A DNA stretch of 50,091 nucleotides from an uncultured Flavobacteriales bacterium (GTDB lineage: Bacteria > Bacteroidota > Bacteroidia > Palsa-965), in the NCBI GenBank assembly GCA_903873905.1, contig CAIQQJ010000161.1:1-50091 (forward strand), written 5' to 3'. The translations under genes and the position numbers were made by a program. Under the pieces are notes generated by a model. The model was not told where the DNA came from and made no database searches. It was given only the letters and a program-made list of their open reading frames with translations. Shown piece by piece: positions 13,141 through 24,676 of this stretch (the stretch's first letter is position 1; each line of letters begins with the position of its first letter).

Positions 13141-13578
13141 TTATTGGCCATCATTCTTCCTCATAAATTCATAAACCGCGCGCACTTCCTCATCGCTAGG
13201 ATTTAACTGTGGCATTCTCACAATGTATTTTATCAAAAGTGCTTTTGCCGTCGAATCCTGATTTAACATGACATCTGTATTCGAAGTGAAATTCATAATC
13301 CATTCAGGAGAAAAACGCGAGGTTACACCTTTCCATCCAGGACCCACAAGTTTTTTATCGTCCAACTGGTGGCATCCAATACATTTTGAAATAAAAACTT
13401 TTTGTCCCTTGGTAACCATTTCCTGATCGAGTGGTGATTTCAGTTCAACCTTGGTGAATTTCCCAATTCCCAAACTCGTATTTGTAGTTTCATGCGACGA
13501 ACCTGAATTGCTACAGGAAAATAATAACAGATTTATTATTGCAAGAAAGATTAGTCCAAAACTTTTTTTCATGTTCAT
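13141..13578 (-). CDS. Lipid-anchored mono-heme cytochrome c (third paralogue)
   Basis: The 145-residue protein has a lipoprotein signal (hydrophobic stretch ending LLLFSC, Cys22), one CxxCH heme site (CIGCH, about 66-70) and a downstream Met ligand candidate in VRMPQLNPSDEEVRAVYEFM. It shares the pattern LVGPGWKGVTSR-PEWIMNF with the cytochromes at 13768 and 21090. The start could also be the second ATG (13572). A TACTTTTG -7 element (minus strand, 13609 to 13602) precedes it. It is probably a periplasm-facing electron carrier linked to the nitrous oxide reductase cluster, but no FNR-like box was found at its promoter. Confidence 0.88.
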   Translation of the reverse strand: MNMKKSFGLIFLAIINLLLFSCSNSGSSHETTNTSLGIGKFTKVELKSPLDQEMVTKGQKVFISKCIGCHQLDDKKLVGPGWKGVTSRFSPEWIMNFTSNTDVMLNQDSTAKALLIKYIVRMPQLNPSDEEVRAVYEFMRKNDGQ

Positions 13579-13767: not shown

Positions 13768-14232
13768 TTATTTTTCCCCATCATTCTTGCGCATGAATTC
13801 CAACACAGCTCTTGCTTCTTCATCTGCAAGATTAGGTGGTGGCATTTTCACAAGCCAAGTTGCCAACAAGGCTTTTGCCTTAACGTCATTATTGAGCATG
13901 TATTCCGTATTGGTTGTAAAATTCATTATCCATTCCGGCGTGAATCGAGATGTTACACCTTTCCAACCTGGGCCAACTAATTTCTCATCCGTCAATTTGT
14001 GACATTGAAGGCATTTGGACGTGAAGATTTTCTCTCCATTGGCGACCATTGCTTCATCGAGAGGCGTGTTGAGTTCCACTTTGGTGAATTTTCCAATTCC
14101 CGATTTCCCATCCGCTCCAGTTGAGGCAAAAGTTGTTGAAGCTGGTTCGCTATTCGCAGAACTTGAATTGCCGCAAGCAATAAAGAATAGACTCGCGGGA
14201 ATGAAAAAGATTGCAATCAAATATTTTTTCAT
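13768..14232 (-). CDS. Lipid-anchored mono-heme cytochrome c (second paralogue)
   Basis: This is a 154-residue protein if it starts at the MKKYLIAIFF methionine (14232). A longer frame to 14271 exists, but the shorter start gives a clean lipoprotein signal (ASLFFIAC, Cys20) and leaves a TAAATTTG -7 element (minus strand, 14283 to 14276) in the leader. Heme is bound at CLQCH (about 74-78), with a Met in VKMPPPNLADEEAR as likely axial ligand. It is very similar to the cytochrome upstream of nosZ, so a role in passing electrons towards NosZ is likely but inferred from family and context. Confidence 0.88.
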   Translation of the reverse strand: MKKYLIAIFFIPASLFFIACGNSSSANSEPASTTFASTGADGKSGIGKFTKVELNTPLDEAMVANGEKIFTSKCLQCHKLTDEKLVGPGWKGVTSRFTPEWIMNFTTNTEYMLNNDVKAKALLATWLVKMPPPNLADEEARAVLEFMRKNDGEK

Positions 14233-14358
14233 AATTGAAATTTGTTCCATGAATTCAAAAATTGAATTCAATCTGCAAATTTATATGTTTTATCGTCTTT
14301 TATCATGTTTTGTCAAATAGCAAGGAAAATATCTATTCTAATTTATTGAAAAATAAAA

Positions 14359-15180: not shown

Positions 15181-15948
15181 TCATATATCTTTTCGGTTAA
15201 ACCTTCGAATACAAAGAAGTAATGGGATTATTATCCAGACAAATAGCATTGCAAAGGCAAATACCATCCCAATTGAGCTTCCGAGGAAATCACGATAGAT
15301 GGCGCCGGTATATCCCATAATGGCTGAAATATCAAGTTGAAGCAGGATATAAATTCTGCCCAAATCAATTGGATTCAATGCGCTCAATGCTACCATTGAC
15401 TTTTCCATTGGATAATCACTGAACGTGAACAGGATTAGCAGCAACAAGCCATCATAAATCAAACCGAAATAAAGCCATAACAAAATCACCACTCCAATAC
15501 CTTTTGCCTTATCACGCGTGAGCACAGAGGCGAGCATTGCAATGGATACAAAAACCCATGTCAGTGCAATACTTACAATCAGTAACGTTAATCCAGTGGC
15601 ATTGGGAGAATAAATCAAGATGGGAATTCCCATTCCCAATAAAACGGCAACGGAAAGCGCCACTGCAAGTCCAGCATAAACACTGATGATGATTTGCTTT
15701 CGTTTAATCGGCATTGTTAAAAGCAATTCAATAAATTCTGCGGAGTTGTAATAATAAATGGTTCCGAAAATGATGGAAACCAAAGGCACAATCAGCAAAG
15801 AAATATTGAGAAGTCCGAGGATTCCTTTTACAGGATTTGAATCAAGATTGAACAATGAAAAGGAAATCGCAAGAAGAACCACGAGATAGGACAATACAAT
15901 CCTATTGCGGATGAGATCGAGAATTACGTATTTGCTAATTTTTCCCAT
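15181..15948 (-). CDS. nosY: NosY-type ABC transporter permease
   Basis: The 255-residue protein has six hydrophobic segments and no other domain, typical of NosY. Conserved-looking words are the NPVKGILGLLNISLLIVPLV stretch, TIYYYNSAEFIELLLTMPIKR and VSIAMLASVLTRDKAKGIG. NosY pairs with NosF in the inner membrane and, with NosD, helps build the copper centre CuZ of NosZ, possibly by handling a sulfur species. The gene begins 4 bp after nosF and is the last gene of the cluster. The name rests on family similarity plus its position next to nosF and nosD. Confidence 0.88.
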   Translation of the reverse strand: MGKISKYVILDLIRNRIVLSYLVVLLAISFSLFNLDSNPVKGILGLLNISLLIVPLVSIIFGTIYYYNSAEFIELLLTMPIKRKQIIISVYAGLAVALSVAVLLGMGIPILIYSPNATGLTLLIVSIALTWVFVSIAMLASVLTRDKAKGIGVVILLWLYFGLIYDGLLLLILFTFSDYPMEKSMVALSALNPIDLGRIYILLQLDISAIMGYTGAIYRDFLGSSIGMVFAFAMLFVWIIIPLLLCIRRFNRKDI

Positions 15949-15952
15949 AATA

Positions 15953-16675
15953 TTAATTTACAAGCGCTGCATTTTTCTTCATGACACTTGCAATCGCGCG
16001 GGCAAGTTTTTCTTCTCCAGTATCGTTACGCAATTCATCAATTGATTTATGAAAAAGCAAATCTCCATCTTGCATATAAATTACTTCGGAAGTAATTTCA
16101 TCGAGATCACTTAATATGTGAGAGGTGATGAGAATTAATTTTCCTTTGTTTTTTTCTGCGAGAATTTTTTCCTTGAGTTGTTCTGCTGATAATGGATCAA
16201 GTCCTGCAGTCGGTTCATCAAGAATAATAACAGGTGGATTAAAAAGAAATGCAAGACATGCACTAACTTTTTGTCGTGTACCACCAGAAAGTGTGCGCAT
16301 GGTTTTGTCCTTCATCTTATCGAGTCCATACGTCTCGATTAATTCATGATCTTCTTTCAATCCGTGACTCTTTCTTATATCACGAATCATATCAAACAAT
16401 TGTTCAATACGGATATTTTCAGGAAACCTTCCGATCTGCGGCATGTAACCGATTTTACTTCTATAATCGCTGTTGCCAACAATATTGGTTCCATCAAAAA
16501 CAATTGTTCCTTTATCGGCAACAACAAGTCCAAGCAGACTTTTTATAAAAGTTGTTTTCCCAGAGCCATTCGGTCCTATTAGAGAAATTGATTGACCATT
16601 TTTCAACGACAGAGAAACGTTGTTCAGCGCAACCAGTTTTCCAAATTTTTTTGTAAGATTTTCAACTTCAATCAT
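15953..16675 (-). CDS. nosF: NosF-type ABC transporter ATPase
   Basis: The 240-residue ATP-binding protein has Walker A GPNGSGKT at 34-41, the Q-loop region GYMPQIGRFPENI, signature LSGGTRQK, Walker B VIILDEP and the switch His in ITSHILSDLDE. It energises NosY for NosZ maturation. Its start overlaps the end of nosD by 8 bp and nosY follows 4 bp downstream, so the three are tightly coupled. Nothing unusual was seen. Confidence 0.93.
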   Translation of the reverse strand: MIEVENLTKKFGKLVALNNVSLSLKNGQSISLIGPNGSGKTTFIKSLLGLVVADKGTIVFDGTNIVGNSDYRSKIGYMPQIGRFPENIRIEQLFDMIRDIRKSHGLKEDHELIETYGLDKMKDKTMRTLSGGTRQKVSACLAFLFNPPVIILDEPTAGLDPLSAEQLKEKILAEKNKGKLILITSHILSDLDEITSEVIYMQDGDLLFHKSIDELRNDTGEEKLARAIASVMKKNAALVN

Positions 16676-17948
16676 AACGAGACGACATTGATTTCATGAG
16701 CGGACGATTATCAATTAGATCAACCGGAGTCATTCCGGGAATTACTTTTTCAGCTTTATCTAGAAGATTGGTCATCGGACTTCTAAAAAGCATTAATGCA
16801 GAAGGTATTTTTTGAATGATTACAGAATACAATCCGACTGGTCTATAAGGCACATCCCCTATTCCATTTCTATCCAAATCATAACCTTCATATTTATCCC
16901 AATAATTTCCATCGAATTTTGTCAGCACGAGATCGCCATTTGTAGAAATGTCAAACGAATTTCCAACGAAACAATTATGCGTTACAACAATATCCATGCA
17001 ACTTGCTTGTACTTGTGCTGCCCATCCGTTTGAAAGAAATAAATTATTTCTGAATTCCATTCGTGTACTTCCTTCGATGTGAACAGCCTCGGTATTTTCC
17101 TGAAAAGTATTTCCCTCAATTTTACTGTCTGAAATATCTTTCAACAATAAACCATAAGCGGCATCTCCCCAATTCAAAAGAAATTTATTGTAAAGCATTG
17201 TCAAATTCTTCGTGTACATAACTGCTACACCAGCTCCATTTTCCTGGAAGATATTTGAAGTGTATGTATCACTATTTGAAAACATAAAATGCAAACCATA
17301 CCGTTCATTGTTGTGGCTAAAATTTCCAAGGATCAATGAATTGGTTACAAATTCAAAATAAATTCCATCGCGCTGAGAGGAAATATTATTCTGAAATATT
17401 CTTAAGCTATCGGAATGCCAACAATGAATGCCATTTCCAGACATCATTTCAGAAGCTTTCACGCCATGAATGAAATTGTTATAGATAAAACAATTGGTGC
17501 AGCCCTGTAGGTAAATTGAAAAATAGGCGTGCTCAATGATATTTGATCGAATCTCTACATGATGGCCATTGAATATTTTTATTGCAGCCATGTCGTTAAT
17601 ATCAGACCTTCCTGCGTTAATAAATTTCAATCCAGTTATTGTAACATAGTTTGCTTTAGTTTCAAGAATCTCATTTTTGTCTTGCCCATCTAATACAGGG
17701 AAATTTTCTCCCTTTATGTATAACGACTTGTCAACGACAATTGTGGGTTCTGCATAATTTCCTGAAGGAATAATTAAGGTGTCGCCACTTTCTGCTCTAG
17801 CAATAGCAGTAGAAATGGTTTCTCCTTTATTTTTTTCTACCCGCAATACTCTTGAAAATAAAGATTGCGATGAAACAAAAAATAAAACAAGGGATAAAAC
17901 AATATGTCGAATCCCTTGTGAATATATTGAAGTTTTATCCAAAATCAT
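16668..17948 (-). CDS. nosD: NosD periplasmic copper-site maturation protein
   Basis: This is a 426-residue protein when started at the ATG at 17948, which overlaps the nosL stop as ATGA and suggests translational coupling; an ATG 18 bp upstream is possible. A signal peptide (about 12-33) is followed by a right-handed parallel beta-helix of CASH/NosD repeats. Repeated strands include VEIRSNIIEHAYFSIYLQG, LRIFQNNISSQRDGIYFEF, YGLHFMFSNSDTYTSN and GVAVMYTKNLTMLYN. The C-terminal part carries GNYWDKYEGYDLDRNGIGD, a NosD hallmark. NosD works with NosFY in the periplasm to deliver components of CuZ. Confidence 0.93.
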   Translation of the reverse strand: MILDKTSIYSQGIRHIVLSLVLFFVSSQSLFSRVLRVEKNKGETISTAIARAESGDTLIIPSGNYAEPTIVVDKSLYIKGENFPVLDGQDKNEILETKANYVTITGLKFINAGRSDINDMAAIKIFNGHHVEIRSNIIEHAYFSIYLQGCTNCFIYNNFIHGVKASEMMSGNGIHCWHSDSLRIFQNNISSQRDGIYFEFVTNSLILGNFSHNNERYGLHFMFSNSDTYTSNIFQENGAGVAVMYTKNLTMLYNKFLLNWGDAAYGLLLKDISDSKIEGNTFQENTEAVHIEGSTRMEFRNNLFLSNGWAAQVQASCMDIVVTHNCFVGNSFDISTNGDLVLTKFDGNYWDKYEGYDLDRNGIGDVPYRPVGLYSVIIQKIPSALMLFRSPMTNLLDKAEKVIPGMTPVDLIDNRPLMKSMSSRYD

Positions 17949-18973
17949 TTTGTCAGTTCGTCCCAAGTTATTGGTGATCCCTGAAGTTCACTGATAGCCT
18001 TTTGTCGTGATGCTGCATCTTTGAATGCTGCAATATTTCCACCCATTGGCGTGTGCAATGCTTCACTTTTCATCAGAAATGCCTTGTCCGCAAGAATAAA
18101 ACCTCCGTCGCCTGAATAATCAAGGAGGTAAACATTTCCTTCGTTTTCTTTTTTTATCGCACCAGATTTCTTGTAATCAACAATGCAGCGTGCATCATCG
18201 AATTTGAATATTTTTCCTTTTGAGGTAACAATTTCTCCTCCGAATTTTTTGTCCATGATGGTCATTTTGCAATGATCACAAGGATCTTTTCCAAATCGAA
18301 TTGTTTCCGGTCCAGAAGTGCAACCCATCATTGACAAGGCAATAATCCCCATTGCAATCGGTGCAATTTTATTCGCAAGGCCAATTCCCGCTTTTTTCTC
18401 GCGACGGCTTTTTAATTTTTCTACAAGTACACCACCCAATAATAAAACTCCACTTGAAACAATCATCCATCCGCCAATATCAGGAACAGAGTAAGCTCCG
18501 AAATTGAGCAATTGTTTATATCCAATTAATGGTGGCTGATAAGATTGTCCAGGAACTTGAATTGGTGCTTCTGGATTAAGGTTATGTCCATAACTATATT
18601 CCCATCTGTAAAAATCAACCATCGCAATAACAGCAAATGCAATAAATAGGAAAAAATAAATGTGAAATATTTTCTTTTTGTTTAAAGCAGCTGCAAGAAT
18701 TCCAAGAAAAACAAAAGACCAAATGATATAGGGCAATATTGTAAACTCGATGAATTCATTTGCATGCAAAGTCTTCATACCGATGTAATGGTTCAATCCA
18801 TTAATGATATCGACATCACTACCTAATTTATTCGCCCAAATGTAAAGGCATAATCCTTCAGGATATTGTGGAGCTGCAAGTTCAATTCTCCAAATGGGAT
18901 AATAAATAGCAGCAATCATGCTAAGTGCTGCCAATAAGGTTAGAATTCTAGTTACGATACTCAGCTTTTTCAT
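17945..18973 (-). CDS. nosL: NosL fused to an N-terminal multi-pass membrane domain
   Basis: This is a 342-residue protein from the MKKLSIVTR start (18973); an upstream ATG at 18997 is less likely. Residues about 1-185 carry four membrane segments and the motif PQYPEGLCLYIWANKLGSDV followed by INGLNHYIGMK. I recall this domain as a separate protein in other genomes. Residues about 203-342 are NosL: a fifth hydrophobic stretch ending LSMMGC (Cys218), the copper-binding motif DPCDHCKM (Cys232, Cys235) and MGGNIAAF near the end. NosL is a Cu(I) chaperone for NosZ and normally a free lipoprotein of about 150-190 residues. The internal lipobox looks like a relic of that state. Confidence 0.88.
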   Translation of the reverse strand: MKKLSIVTRILTLLAALSMIAAIYYPIWRIELAAPQYPEGLCLYIWANKLGSDVDIINGLNHYIGMKTLHANEFIEFTILPYIIWSFVFLGILAAALNKKKIFHIYFFLFIAFAVIAMVDFYRWEYSYGHNLNPEAPIQVPGQSYQPPLIGYKQLLNFGAYSVPDIGGWMIVSSGVLLLGGVLVEKLKSRREKKAGIGLANKIAPIAMGIIALSMMGCTSGPETIRFGKDPCDHCKMTIMDKKFGGEIVTSKGKIFKFDDARCIVDYKKSGAIKKENEGNVYLLDYSGDGGFILADKAFLMKSEALHTPMGGNIAAFKDAASRQKAISELQGSPITWDELTK

Positions 18974-19059: not shown

Positions 19060-21042
19060 TTATTTTCCGCTTCCGTCTGCTGGCAAATTCGTACCAGTAC
19101 TCCAGGATAAAGGAACTGTACTATTTGCAACCGACACTCGAGTGTAACCTTGCATCTCTTGGTGCAATGCACTACAGAAGTCTGTGCAATACATTGGAAC
19201 TACTCCAACATAATCAGGAATCCATTTCAAGGTACAGGTTTCACCTGGCATGATCAGAAGTTCAGCTGTGGCTGCACCTTTAATAGCAAATCCGTGTGGA
19301 ATATCCCAATCCTGTTCAAGGTTGGTTACGTGGAAATACACTTCATCTCCCAATCTTACACCTTCAATATTATCAGGAGTAAAATGTGAACGGATACAAG
19401 TCATGTAAACATCAACTCTGTTTCCAGTACGAACAACTTTAGCTTCTTTTTCTCCATTGGTGAAATAAGGATTTTTGTTTTCCTCAATTTTGAAAAACTT
19501 AACACTCTTGTCTTTTATCAAGGCTGCAGGACAAGCTTGTGCATAGTGAGGTTCTCCAATTGTTGGGAAGTCAAGAAGAAGTTGCATTTTATCTCCAGAA
19601 ATATCAAACAATTGAGCACTCTGACAAAGTTCTGGACCTGTAGGCAAGTAACGGTCTTTTGTAATCTTGTCGTAAGCAATCATGTATTTTCCGAAAGGCT
19701 TGCGACTATCTCCGCCAGGAACACAAAGGTGACCAACAGAGTAATAAGTAGGAACGCGATCTACAACTTTAAGATCTTTGATATTCCATTTTACAACTTC
19801 AGAAGTAACGAACATGGAAGTATATGCAAATCCATTTCCATCAAATTCTGTGTGCAGAGGTCCTAGTCCTGGCTTTTTAACTTCACCATAAAGAACAGAC
19901 TCATACTTAAGAACTGGAATACCTTGGTAATCGCCATCAAATGCATTATCAGCAATTGCCTTTTGGATTTTCGTAAAAGAGAAAACAGGAATCAAAGCTG
20001 CAAGTTTACCACTACCAACAATGTATTCTCCTGAAGGATCAACATCACAACCGTGTGGTGATTTTGGGCAAGGCATAAAATAAAGTAAGCCAGGGCATTC
20101 TTTTGGATCAAGAACAGTTACAGACTGCTCGATTGTAGAAGTTGCCATGTGTTTTTTATCGTCGTATACGTTATGTGCATATTTTGCTGGTGTAGCGTGT
20201 CCTTTTCCTGCAGCAACATATTCTTCAGCTTTTTTCCAGTTCACAGCCATGATATAATCTTTGTCATGTTGGGAAGCGTTTACTTCAAGCAATGTATTTG
20301 CTTGTTCAGAATTATAGCAACTGAAAAACATCCATCCGTGTGATGGTCCTTTACCTGCGTGTGCAAGGTCAAAGTTTACACCAGGGCACATAATTTGAAA
20401 AGCAATTTTCATATTGCCATCATCTTTGTTGACACTGATGAAACTTACAGTTCCTTGGAAGTTCTGTTTGTAGGTATTAATAGGAACATCGCGATTGTCA
20501 CCCATTGGAACGCTAAATCTTGTACCGGCAACAACGTATTCAGTACTCTGTGTAATGAAAGGAGAACTGTGGTTACCAGCACTGTTTGGCAATTCAATAA
20601 TCTCAGCTGTACGGAATGTTGTCAAATCAATTCGCGCAATACGAGGTGTATTGTTTCCATTGATAAAAACCCATCTGCCATCAACTTCGCCTTCTGTTTG
20701 AGAAAGTTCAGCATGGTGAGAATCATCCCATGGAATAAATCCGTGAGAAGTGTTCAACATTGGCTTTGTTTCTTCACTATAACCCCAACCACTTTGTGGA
20801 TCAACAGAGAAAACAGGAATAACACGAAGTGTTCGTCCTGATGGCAAACCTACAACTGACATTTGTCCGTTAAAACCGCCTGAAAGAAAGTTATAGAATT
20901 CATCGTATTTACCTGGAGCAACGTATGCTTTTTCAGCTGCGTTTCCAGCAACAACTTCTTCAGTTGTTTTTGGTTTACAAGAATATACTAAAGACATTCC
21001 TGCAAGTAAGAGAGAGATTGAAATTATCCTGGTGGATTTCAT
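19060..21042 (-). CDS. nosZ: Nitrous oxide reductase, clade II, lipoprotein form
   Basis: NosZ reduces N2O to N2. The 660-residue protein has the copper-Z propeller with DDSHH at 106-110, GNHSSPF and further histidines (HAGKGPSHGW, SPHGCDVDPSGEY, PLHTEFDG, GHLCVPGGD). It ends in a cupredoxin CuA domain with CTDFCSALHQEM (Cys619, Cys623, His627, Met630). The N terminus lacks a twin-arginine motif and is a Sec lipoprotein signal (LVYSC, Cys22). Sec export is the mark of clade II; a lipid-anchored form implies attachment to a membrane. The gene follows a cytochrome c gene by 47 bp and precedes a terminator and the nosL-D-F-Y block. All key copper ligands seen are intact. Confidence 0.97.
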   Translation of the reverse strand: MKSTRIISISLLLAGMSLVYSCKPKTTEEVVAGNAAEKAYVAPGKYDEFYNFLSGGFNGQMSVVGLPSGRTLRVIPVFSVDPQSGWGYSEETKPMLNTSHGFIPWDDSHHAELSQTEGEVDGRWVFINGNNTPRIARIDLTTFRTAEIIELPNSAGNHSSPFITQSTEYVVAGTRFSVPMGDNRDVPINTYKQNFQGTVSFISVNKDDGNMKIAFQIMCPGVNFDLAHAGKGPSHGWMFFSCYNSEQANTLLEVNASQHDKDYIMAVNWKKAEEYVAAGKGHATPAKYAHNVYDDKKHMATSTIEQSVTVLDPKECPGLLYFMPCPKSPHGCDVDPSGEYIVGSGKLAALIPVFSFTKIQKAIADNAFDGDYQGIPVLKYESVLYGEVKKPGLGPLHTEFDGNGFAYTSMFVTSEVVKWNIKDLKVVDRVPTYYSVGHLCVPGGDSRKPFGKYMIAYDKITKDRYLPTGPELCQSAQLFDISGDKMQLLLDFPTIGEPHYAQACPAALIKDKSVKFFKIEENKNPYFTNGEKEAKVVRTGNRVDVYMTCIRSHFTPDNIEGVRLGDEVYFHVTNLEQDWDIPHGFAIKGAATAELLIMPGETCTLKWIPDYVGVVPMYCTDFCSALHQEMQGYTRVSVANSTVPLSWSTGTNLPADGSGK

Positions 21043-21089: not shown

Positions 21090-21566
21090 TTATTTTGCAA
21101 CATCATTTTTGCGCATGAATTCCAGCACTCCACGTGCTTCTTCATCAGCAAGATTTTGATTTGGCATTTTCACAAGGCATATTTCCAACAACGACATTGC
21201 TGTTGCATCCTTATTTAGCATTTCTTCAGTATTGGTTGCAAAATTCAAAATCCATTCCGGAGTACGACGTGATGTAACGCCTTTCCAACCTGGACCAACC
21301 AATTTCTCGTCAGTTAATTTGTGACAAGCCATGCATTTTACATCAAATACTTTTTGTCCCGTGGCAACCATGCCTTCATCGATCTGATCAGCAATTTCCA
21401 CATTTTTAAATTTTCCAACACCCGCTTTATCATCAGATTTTGGTGCAGTGCCAGTTGCTGCTGTATCACCGGTTGCTGGTTTATCGGCAGTACTAGAACT
21501 TCCGCCACATGCGATAAAGAAAAAAGTTACTAATACTGTTAAGGCTGCTATTGAAGTTTTTTTCAT
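21090..21566 (-). CDS. Lipid-anchored mono-heme cytochrome c upstream of nosZ
   Basis: This is a 158-residue protein if started at MKKTSIAALT (21566), which gives a good lipoprotein signal (TFFFIAC, Cys20); a longer frame to 21617 would bury the promoter. The heme site is CMACH (about 78-82), followed by LVGPGWKGVTSRRTPEWIL and a Met in VKMPNQNLADEEAR. It is the first gene of the nos transcript, 47 bp before nosZ, so it is the best candidate for direct electron donor to NosZ. Two paralogues lie at 13141 and 13768. The promoter has an FNR-like box at 21623-21636. Confidence 0.9.
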   Translation of the reverse strand: MKKTSIAALTVLVTFFFIACGGSSSTADKPATGDTAATGTAPKSDDKAGVGKFKNVEIADQIDEGMVATGQKVFDVKCMACHKLTDEKLVGPGWKGVTSRRTPEWILNFATNTEEMLNKDATAMSLLEICLVKMPNQNLADEEARGVLEFMRKNDVAK

Positions 21567-21593
21567 GATATGATTGGTTTTTAAAATCTTGCA

Positions 21594-21636
21594 CAATATT
21601 ACGGCACATTTATCCATATAAAATGATTTAAATCAT
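21594..21636 (-). promoter_or_regulatory. Cytochrome-nosZ promoter with FNR/DNR-like box
   Basis: On the minus strand, TAATATTG (21601 to 21594) is a one-mismatch TAnnTTTG element. The perfect dyad ATGAT-TTAA-ATCAT (21623-21636) is centred 35.5 bp upstream of its end, a class II activator position if transcription starts about 5 nt after the box. Confidence 0.6.
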
Positions 21637-23497: not shown

Positions 23498-24241
23498 TCA
23501 CTTCATTTTCTTTTCCAAATCTTTCAAACGCAGTTCCAATTCCATGAAACGATTCGTATCGGGTTTCTCGATGTCTTTTGTGATGCGGGCTTCCACTTGC
23601 CAAACTTGTCCAACGTCTTCGGATTTCACGGCATAGGATTCGTACACTTCATTGTCGGAACGCAATTCGAAAACATTATTTCCCAATGGGAAAACACGCT
23701 TTGCAACAATGCTTCCATCGTGCAAAACAAAAATGTAAACGTTTCCTTTTTTGACATGCGCCAATTCTTCTACATAAGAACCAACCAACATATCGCCGGG
23801 ATGAATTCCTGGAAGCATGCTATCGCCTGTGATTTCAAATGCGCGAAACGTTTTTCCGTAAAAGCCGGGCAAACGGAAAGAAGGAAGTTTAGCAATGAAA
23901 TCGGGATCGGATTGGCCTTGCAAATATCCTGCGGCTGCTTTGCGATCGACCATCACAATATTTTCTTCCTCGTCGTTGGCGATTTGCACCACTAAAGGAA
24001 GCGCACCAGATTTTTTCTTGGCCGCATCGGAAATATACATTTCACCTTTTCCGTCCATCAGCCAAAGCGGATCGATATTGAATTTCGCGACGATGGCTTT
24101 ATATACATCGTAGGAAATCCCATTCTTCTCACCTTCTAATTGTGAGAGGGAAGTTTGCGTAATGCCAATGTCGTTGGCAAATTCCGTCTGACTCATTCCG
24201 AGTTGCTTGCGGATAATTTTAATTCGTTGGGCGAGTGTCAT
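23498..24241 (-). CDS. XRE/S24 (LexA- or CI-like) transcriptional regulator
   Basis: The 247-residue protein has an N-terminal Cro/CI helix-turn-helix (GMSQTEFANDIGITQTSLSQLE, about 15-36) and a C-terminal S24 peptidase fold. The catalytic pair is Ser141 in EITGDSMLPGIHPGD and Lys181 in GSIVAKRVF. A possible Ala-Gly self-cleavage site, KAAAGYL (Ala104-Gly105), lies before it. Proteins of this kind repress genes until stress such as DNA damage triggers self-cleavage. The tail ends in a helix rich in Glu/Lys/Leu. A TAACTTTG -7 element (minus strand, 24266 to 24259) precedes the ATG. Targets are unknown; no phage genes are nearby. Confidence 0.88.
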   Translation of the reverse strand: MTLAQRIKIIRKQLGMSQTEFANDIGITQTSLSQLEGEKNGISYDVYKAIVAKFNIDPLWLMDGKGEMYISDAAKKKSGALPLVVQIANDEEENIVMVDRKAAAGYLQGQSDPDFIAKLPSFRLPGFYGKTFRAFEITGDSMLPGIHPGDMLVGSYVEELAHVKKGNVYIFVLHDGSIVAKRVFPLGNNVFELRSDNEVYESYAVKSEDVGQVWQVEARITKDIEKPDTNRFMELELRLKDLEKKMK

Positions 24242-24385
24242 TTGGATCGTTTATGGCACAAAGTTAATAAAATATTTGGATATCTATTAAGTTTAACTAT
24301 ATATTTGTGTCGTGATGCTGCTTCTATATGAGCAACTATAAGCAAAGTTAATAATAATGATTCAAAAATTGGGAGGAACATTTAG

Positions 24386-24676
24386 ATGAACTTATCAACT
24401 AGAACGAACCAAACCTTATCGATTGGTGCATTGATTTCCCAGGTAATTATGCCTCTTGGCGTCCTTAATGGCAACAACTTACCTCCCGCGGACGGAACTA
24501 TCCGGAACGTAACATCACAAAACTTATTCTTATTCGAAGAGCGTGACCCCGTAAGGTCAACGGAGCGCGTGCCGGAATGCTCTTCGAGCCAAATAGATCG
24601 GGATTGGTCTGCCAGCAGCGGTGCCTCCGCCTGCCCCGGAACGACCAACCCGTTCTTTCAAGTTGAAGCGGCGTAG
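24386..24676 (+). CDS. Doubtful ORF inside a GC-richer, highly structured island
   Basis: This open frame of 96 codons follows a good Shine-Dalgarno-like GGGAGGA (24371-24377). The protein begins MNLSTRTNQTLSIGALISQ and is hydrophilic, with Ser/Pro/Arg-rich words, no recognised domain and codon use unlike the neighbours. The opposite strand is also open (24382-24648). Because the stretch forms nested hairpins (24534-24652), it may be a structured RNA or repeat element and not a gene. Either strand being coding is uncertain. Confidence 0.3.
   Translation: MNLSTRTNQTLSIGALISQVIMPLGVLNGNNLPPADGTIRNVTSQNLFLFEERDPVRSTERVPECSSSQIDRDWSASSGASACPGTTNPFFQVEAA

Follow-up and report, generated by a model that had tools for sequence, protein, structure and literature searches.

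The NosB-NosL fusion protein of a clade II nos cluster carries a conserved internal lipobox and is probably a self-separating precursor

As reported in the Flavobacterium azooxidireducens paper (PMC9697520), which cites van Spanning 2011 and Hein 2017, NosB and NosL are fused in Dyadobacter fermentans and several flavobacteria, and other flavobacteria have two genes at that place. The paper also gives LNHYIGM and YGHN as NosB motifs and reports that N2O respiration depends on NosB in Wolinella. NosL proteins from elsewhere have been described as lipobox-dependent acylated lipoproteins, anchored via the acylated Cys, which bind Cu(I) and deliver it to the CuZ site (PMC7558416). The protein presented here resembles the Dyadobacter and Flavobacterium fusions in its two domains, their order, their place between nosZ and nosD, and both motifs; unlike the present work, the accessible part of the published account makes no mention of a lipobox at the joint, of processing, or of fusion and splitting having recurred within the phylum (PMC9697520). 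The NosB-NosL fusion as such is already known; what is new is the result on the lipobox at the joint.

We analysed a stretch of 50,091 nucleotides (the window) from an uncultured Flavobacteriales bacterium. It holds a clade II nos cluster with the gene order cytochrome c, nosZ, nosBL, nosD, ABC ATPase, ABC permease, in which nosBL encodes the fusion:

15181..15948, minus strand: nosY-like ABC permease
15953..16675, minus strand: nosF-like ABC ATPase
16668..17948, minus strand: nosD (TIGR04247, E 2.8e-119; likely ATG 17946-17948)
17945..18973, minus strand: nosBL fusion gene (342 aa + stop)
17948..18319, minus strand: NosL copper-chaperone domain of nosBL, residues 219-342
18263-18280, minus strand: CxxCKM motif, Cys232-Met237 (Cys232, Cys235, Met237)
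18320..18367, minus strand: h-region and lipobox, residues 203-218 (IAPIAMGIIALSMMG-C; Cys218 codon 18320-18322)
18368..18412, minus strand: residues 188-202 (KSRREKKAGIGLANK), the n-region of the internal signal, with positive charge and a predicted cytoplasmic location
18386..18973, minus strand: NosB domain, residues 1-196, with four membrane helices; the NosB motifs lie in two segments predicted to be periplasmic
19060..21042, minus strand: nosZ, clade II Sec-dependent nitrous-oxide reductase (TIGR04246, E 2.7e-279)
21090..21617, minus strand: c-type cytochrome lipoprotein, upstream of nosZ

The nosBL open reading frame is on the minus strand, and over 17945-18973 the opposite strand is crowded with stops; the earlier sequence-only reading of this DNA had given no strand. 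The nosBL stop is overlapped by the nosD start codon (ATGA, 17945-17948), and a second overlap within 15945-17970 joins the ends of nosD and nosF (16668-16675). These end overlaps suggest translational coupling of nosBL, nosD and nosF. The nos cluster is flanked by three small genes for c-type cytochrome lipoproteins that resemble one another (13141-13578, 13768-14271 and 21090-21617, all on the minus strand), and their products are candidate electron donors to NosZ.

The residue numbering at the joint was verified (...ANKIAPIAMGIIALSMMG-C218-TSGPETIRFGKDPCDHCKM). As the sequence-only reading had described, a four-helix domain is followed by a hydrophobic stretch ending in LSMMGC, with the Cys at residue 218, and then by NosL; the translation, the PF05573 match and the AlphaFold model all bear this out. 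The membrane domain had been called unknown. Because it lies between nosZ and nosD and carries both published motifs, we identify it from its sequence as the NosB of clade II nos clusters, the partner in the published fusion (PMC9697520). The motifs fall at residues 58-66 (NGLNHYIGM, with LNHYIGM at 60-66) and 128-131 (YGHN). The AlphaFold model, which is good over residues 1-196 (mean pLDDT 87), places the helices at 6-24, 75-97, 100-130 and 166-195. The gene order nosZ-NosB-nosD, the motifs and the four helices are those of NosB in other clade II clusters, whereas the window protein is extended C-terminally by NosL. NosB homologues occupy the same place in the nos clusters of Natronorubrum, a haloarchaeon, and Thermomicrobium, where NosL is encoded separately, further downstream.

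In profile searches, no Pfam or NCBIfam family covered the membrane domain. Matches of nosBL to NCBIfam invert_tail (14 bits against a cut-off of 37) and to DUF3267 (E 0.8) were dismissed as chance, and comparison of the whole NosBL protein with the PDB by sequence gave no match. The 50 listed PDB matches of the NosB model (18386-18973) were all claudins, claudin-type TARP subunits of AMPA receptors, or DUOXA1. All of these proteins are small, with four helices and a beta sheet on the outside, and the TARPs and DUOXA1 among them serve larger membrane complexes as helper subunits. Among the matches listed, the best E was 2e-3, with TM (query) of 0.37-0.51 and rmsd of about 6-9, which is below a firm call; the agreement across them is notable, and a claudin/TARP-like fold for NosB is suggestive only.

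The C-terminal domain was recognised by PF05573 (NosL) over residues 229-341, with E 2.2e-9 and 38.2 bits against a curated cut-off of 24. In Foldseek, the full-length NosBL model matched the NosL crystal and NosDFYL complex structures (PDB 7og7, 7osg), on 7og7 with E 6.8e-6 and a TM of 0.76 normalised on the target. The domain shares with known NosL lipoproteins its fold, the CxxCKM motif and a lipobox directly before that motif. The position of the lipobox is different, since in known NosL it lies near the N terminus and in the window protein at residue 218, behind a polytopic domain.

The joint between the two domains reads KSRREKKAGIGLANK-IAPIAMGIIALSMMG-C218 and has the features of a lipoprotein signal, namely a basic n-region, a hydrophobic h-region and a small residue before the Cys. 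Lipoprotein signals are usually N-terminal; the one in the window protein is not, its Cys coming after four helices. On a 19-residue scale the joint stretch is marginally hydrophobic, with a peak of 1.62 compared to 2.0-2.3 for helices 1-4, and it appears nearer to a signal than to a permanent helix. AlphaFold placed a short helix at 204-215, just before Cys218, at low confidence (pLDDT around 50). Topology and structure prediction had been proposed as a check on the fusion, and the predicted topology is consistent with Cys218 lying at the periplasmic face. The window's own genome encodes Lgt and two LspA. The two LspA (signal peptidase II) genes stand in tandem (G000:C40:23079-23642 and 24010-24570).

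The short helix bears on the main rival to a self-separating precursor, a lipidated but uncleaved tether. According to this alternative, Lgt would modify Cys218, LspA would make no cut, and NosL would stay tied to NosB by a fifth helix, which would couple NosB to the delivery of copper. A helix at 204-215 agrees with such a tether, but the pLDDT of that segment weakens the point.

Relatives were gathered from public genomes and by searching the class and the phylum to which the window's genome belongs; genomes of the same family held no convincing relative, and an order-level search added none. After removal of identical NosL domains, 79 fused and 104 split cases were kept, and counts on these totals refer to distinct sequences, which are related and not independent events. 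The split cases encode NosL further downstream, in a gene of its own whose product has a separate lipoprotein signal. With 79 distinct fused proteins, a sequencing error as the origin of the fusion was ruled out.

The lipobox Cys was present in 79/79 fused and 104/104 split proteins. The residue at -1 was G, A or S in 77/79 and 103/104, respectively (Arg or Asn in the two remaining fused proteins), and the residue at -3 was L, V, I, M or F in 67/79 and 91/104. Picking the lipobox Cys by score might have biased these counts; anchoring on the CxxCKM motif instead returned the same 77/79 and 103/104, with a near-fixed distance of 14-15 residues from the Cys to the motif. The entropy along the fused joints was 2.7-4 bits from -32 to -4, 1.5 at -1, and 0 at the Cys. 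No charged residues occurred from -12 to -4, and the n-region was basic, with a positive net charge in 76/79. A lipobox core pattern (PROSITE-type) matched 69/79 fused joints, compared to 21.7% of positions in the uncharged stretches within the NosB part of these proteins, so by this sequence measure the lipobox at the joint exceeds chance. The median uncharged run was 16 residues at the fused joint and 19 in the NosB stretches. The Cys codon was TGC in 51 fused genes and TGT in 28, a mixture which implies that the DNA has diverged.

The sequence-only reading had regarded the lipobox as a fossil, i.e. a dead signal that is now a mere membrane anchor tying NosL to NosB. The architecture, taken alone, would suit that proposal. 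Nevertheless, a dead relic would have decayed, yet the Cys is invariant and the small -1 residue nearly so in fused proteins of many lineages, at a joint that is otherwise variable, and conservation is equal in fused and split proteins. We consider a fossil signal very improbable. Alternatively, Cys218 might be conserved because it binds copper or has a structural role, rather than for lipidation, and its near-fixed distance to CxxCKM in both states is compatible with such a role. However, the small -1 residue, the hydrophobic -3 residue, the uncharged run and the basic n-region would all be left unexplained, which makes this the most improbable of the explanations weighed here.

For the uncleaved tether, the same data point both ways. 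Conservation of the Cys and the lipobox is in its favour, but the small residue at -1 is the one expected for cleavage. Fused proteins also have a slightly longer hydrophobic stretch than split ones (median 16 vs 14, p about 5e-6 on sequences that are not independent), which could fit a tether or could reflect some adaptation of the signal to its internal position.

Another way to retain a lipobox would be internal translation initiation in the fused gene, which would make free NosL and keep the lipobox for that product. In 45/79 fused genes, an ATG in frame stands 14-40 codons ahead of the Cys; some of these starts are of the MKK type (L021, L033, L039), and they could supply part of the relatives with additional free NosL. 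On the other hand, 14/79 fused genes are without any ATG, GTG or TTG in that span. The sequence-only reading had named an internal start as a finding that would count against it, and none is evident in the window gene, where the only in-frame start near Cys218 is a TTG 39 codons upstream, inside helix 4. We therefore consider internal initiation quite improbable as the reason for the conserved lipobox.

A quick, unrooted tree of the 183 NosB plus NosL sequences, built without the joint, required at least 34 changes between the fused and split states. After collapsing nodes with SH-aLRT below 80, 90 and 95, the number fell to 32, 25 and 17, of which 17 is the safer minimum, the tree being quick. 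Both states were found inside five genera (g11, g25, g43, g60, g75). Judged from these sequences, fused and split arrangements interchange often. The sequence-only reading had proposed that a membrane gene and a nosL lipoprotein gene merged, and had suggested a search for the two halves as separate neighbours. Such adjacent genes were found in close relatives, and homologues with either half alone exist, which supports this part of the reading in that the two arrangements interconvert; the unrooted tree is compatible with fusion and with splitting. Both directions of change nevertheless imply that the lipobox is in use. Many separate fusions would mean that it survived every time, and an old fusion followed by many splits would mean that the internal lipobox has been preserved for as long as the group has existed. 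The easy swapping with split genes also suggests that the linkage is dispensable, which argues against the uncleaved tether, and we consider that alternative rather unlikely.

We propose, with a probability of about 0.68, that the NosB-NosL protein of the clade II nos cluster is a self-separating precursor whose products equal those of the split operons. From the domain architecture and the comparison of relatives, we infer its topology, lipidation and cleavage as follows. NosB would insert with four helices and with both ends cytoplasmic; the loops that carry conserved His and Met residues would be periplasmic, and helix 4 would return to the cytoplasm. The basic linker KSRREKK would be held inside by the positive-inside rule, and the short hydrophobic stretch after it would act as an internal lipoprotein signal, from which Cys218 would emerge at the periplasmic face, the side on which Lgt and LspA work. 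Lgt would put diacylglycerol on Cys218, and LspA would most likely cut between Gly217 and Cys218. A normal, lipid-anchored NosL copper chaperone would be freed, NosB would keep the old signal as a short tail, and the products would match those of relatives with two genes, NosB and NosL. Lipidation of Cys218 is very likely, and cleavage at the joint is likely. We favour lipidation followed by cleavage because the topology fits, the stretch is signal-like, the host has Lgt and LspA, and NosL elsewhere is acyl-anchored. The cell probably still uses the lipobox to lipid-anchor NosL and to release it from NosB. It also seems reasonably likely that, more generally, this is a polyprotein whose internal lipobox, lipidated by Lgt and cut by LspA, serves as a built-in separator, and that fusions and splits are near neutral and have occurred often in one phylum.

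FbcH, the cytochrome b/c1 precursor of Bradyrhizobium, likewise joins a polytopic membrane protein to one that is exported, and the internal signal of the latter is cleaved. The enzyme in that case is signal peptidase I, whereas NosBL has a lipobox, hence LspA. Literature searches on FbcH and on internal signals cut by signal peptidase II gave no direct precedent, and within our incomplete coverage of the literature we found no published example of an internal lipoprotein signal being processed. If the self-separating precursor is real, the known substrates of Lgt and LspA extend to internal signals, and predictors that scan N termini only would miss such lipoproteins. Fusions are often taken as proof that the partners must be physically tied; NosB-NosL would be no such proof if the lipobox is cut. 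Cleavage would make doubtful the physical coupling of the membrane domain to copper delivery that the sequence-only reading had put forward, and would weaken the published inference of a copper-handling role of NosB from its fusion to NosL to one of co-expression. The assembly of N2O reductase bears on a greenhouse gas sink.

We must also note two variations on the NosL side. In six fused proteins (L062, L065, L084, L086, L087, L088), the CxxC copper motif has lost its first Cys (e.g. GAHCRM, GAYCRM) but the lipobox Cys is still there, which speaks further for a lipobox in use. In some relatives, among them L108 (1341+), L153 (1146+) and L167 (1212+), a NosL-like lipoprotein paralogue lies between nosB and nosL, with DICxxTxKxI in place of CxxCKM.
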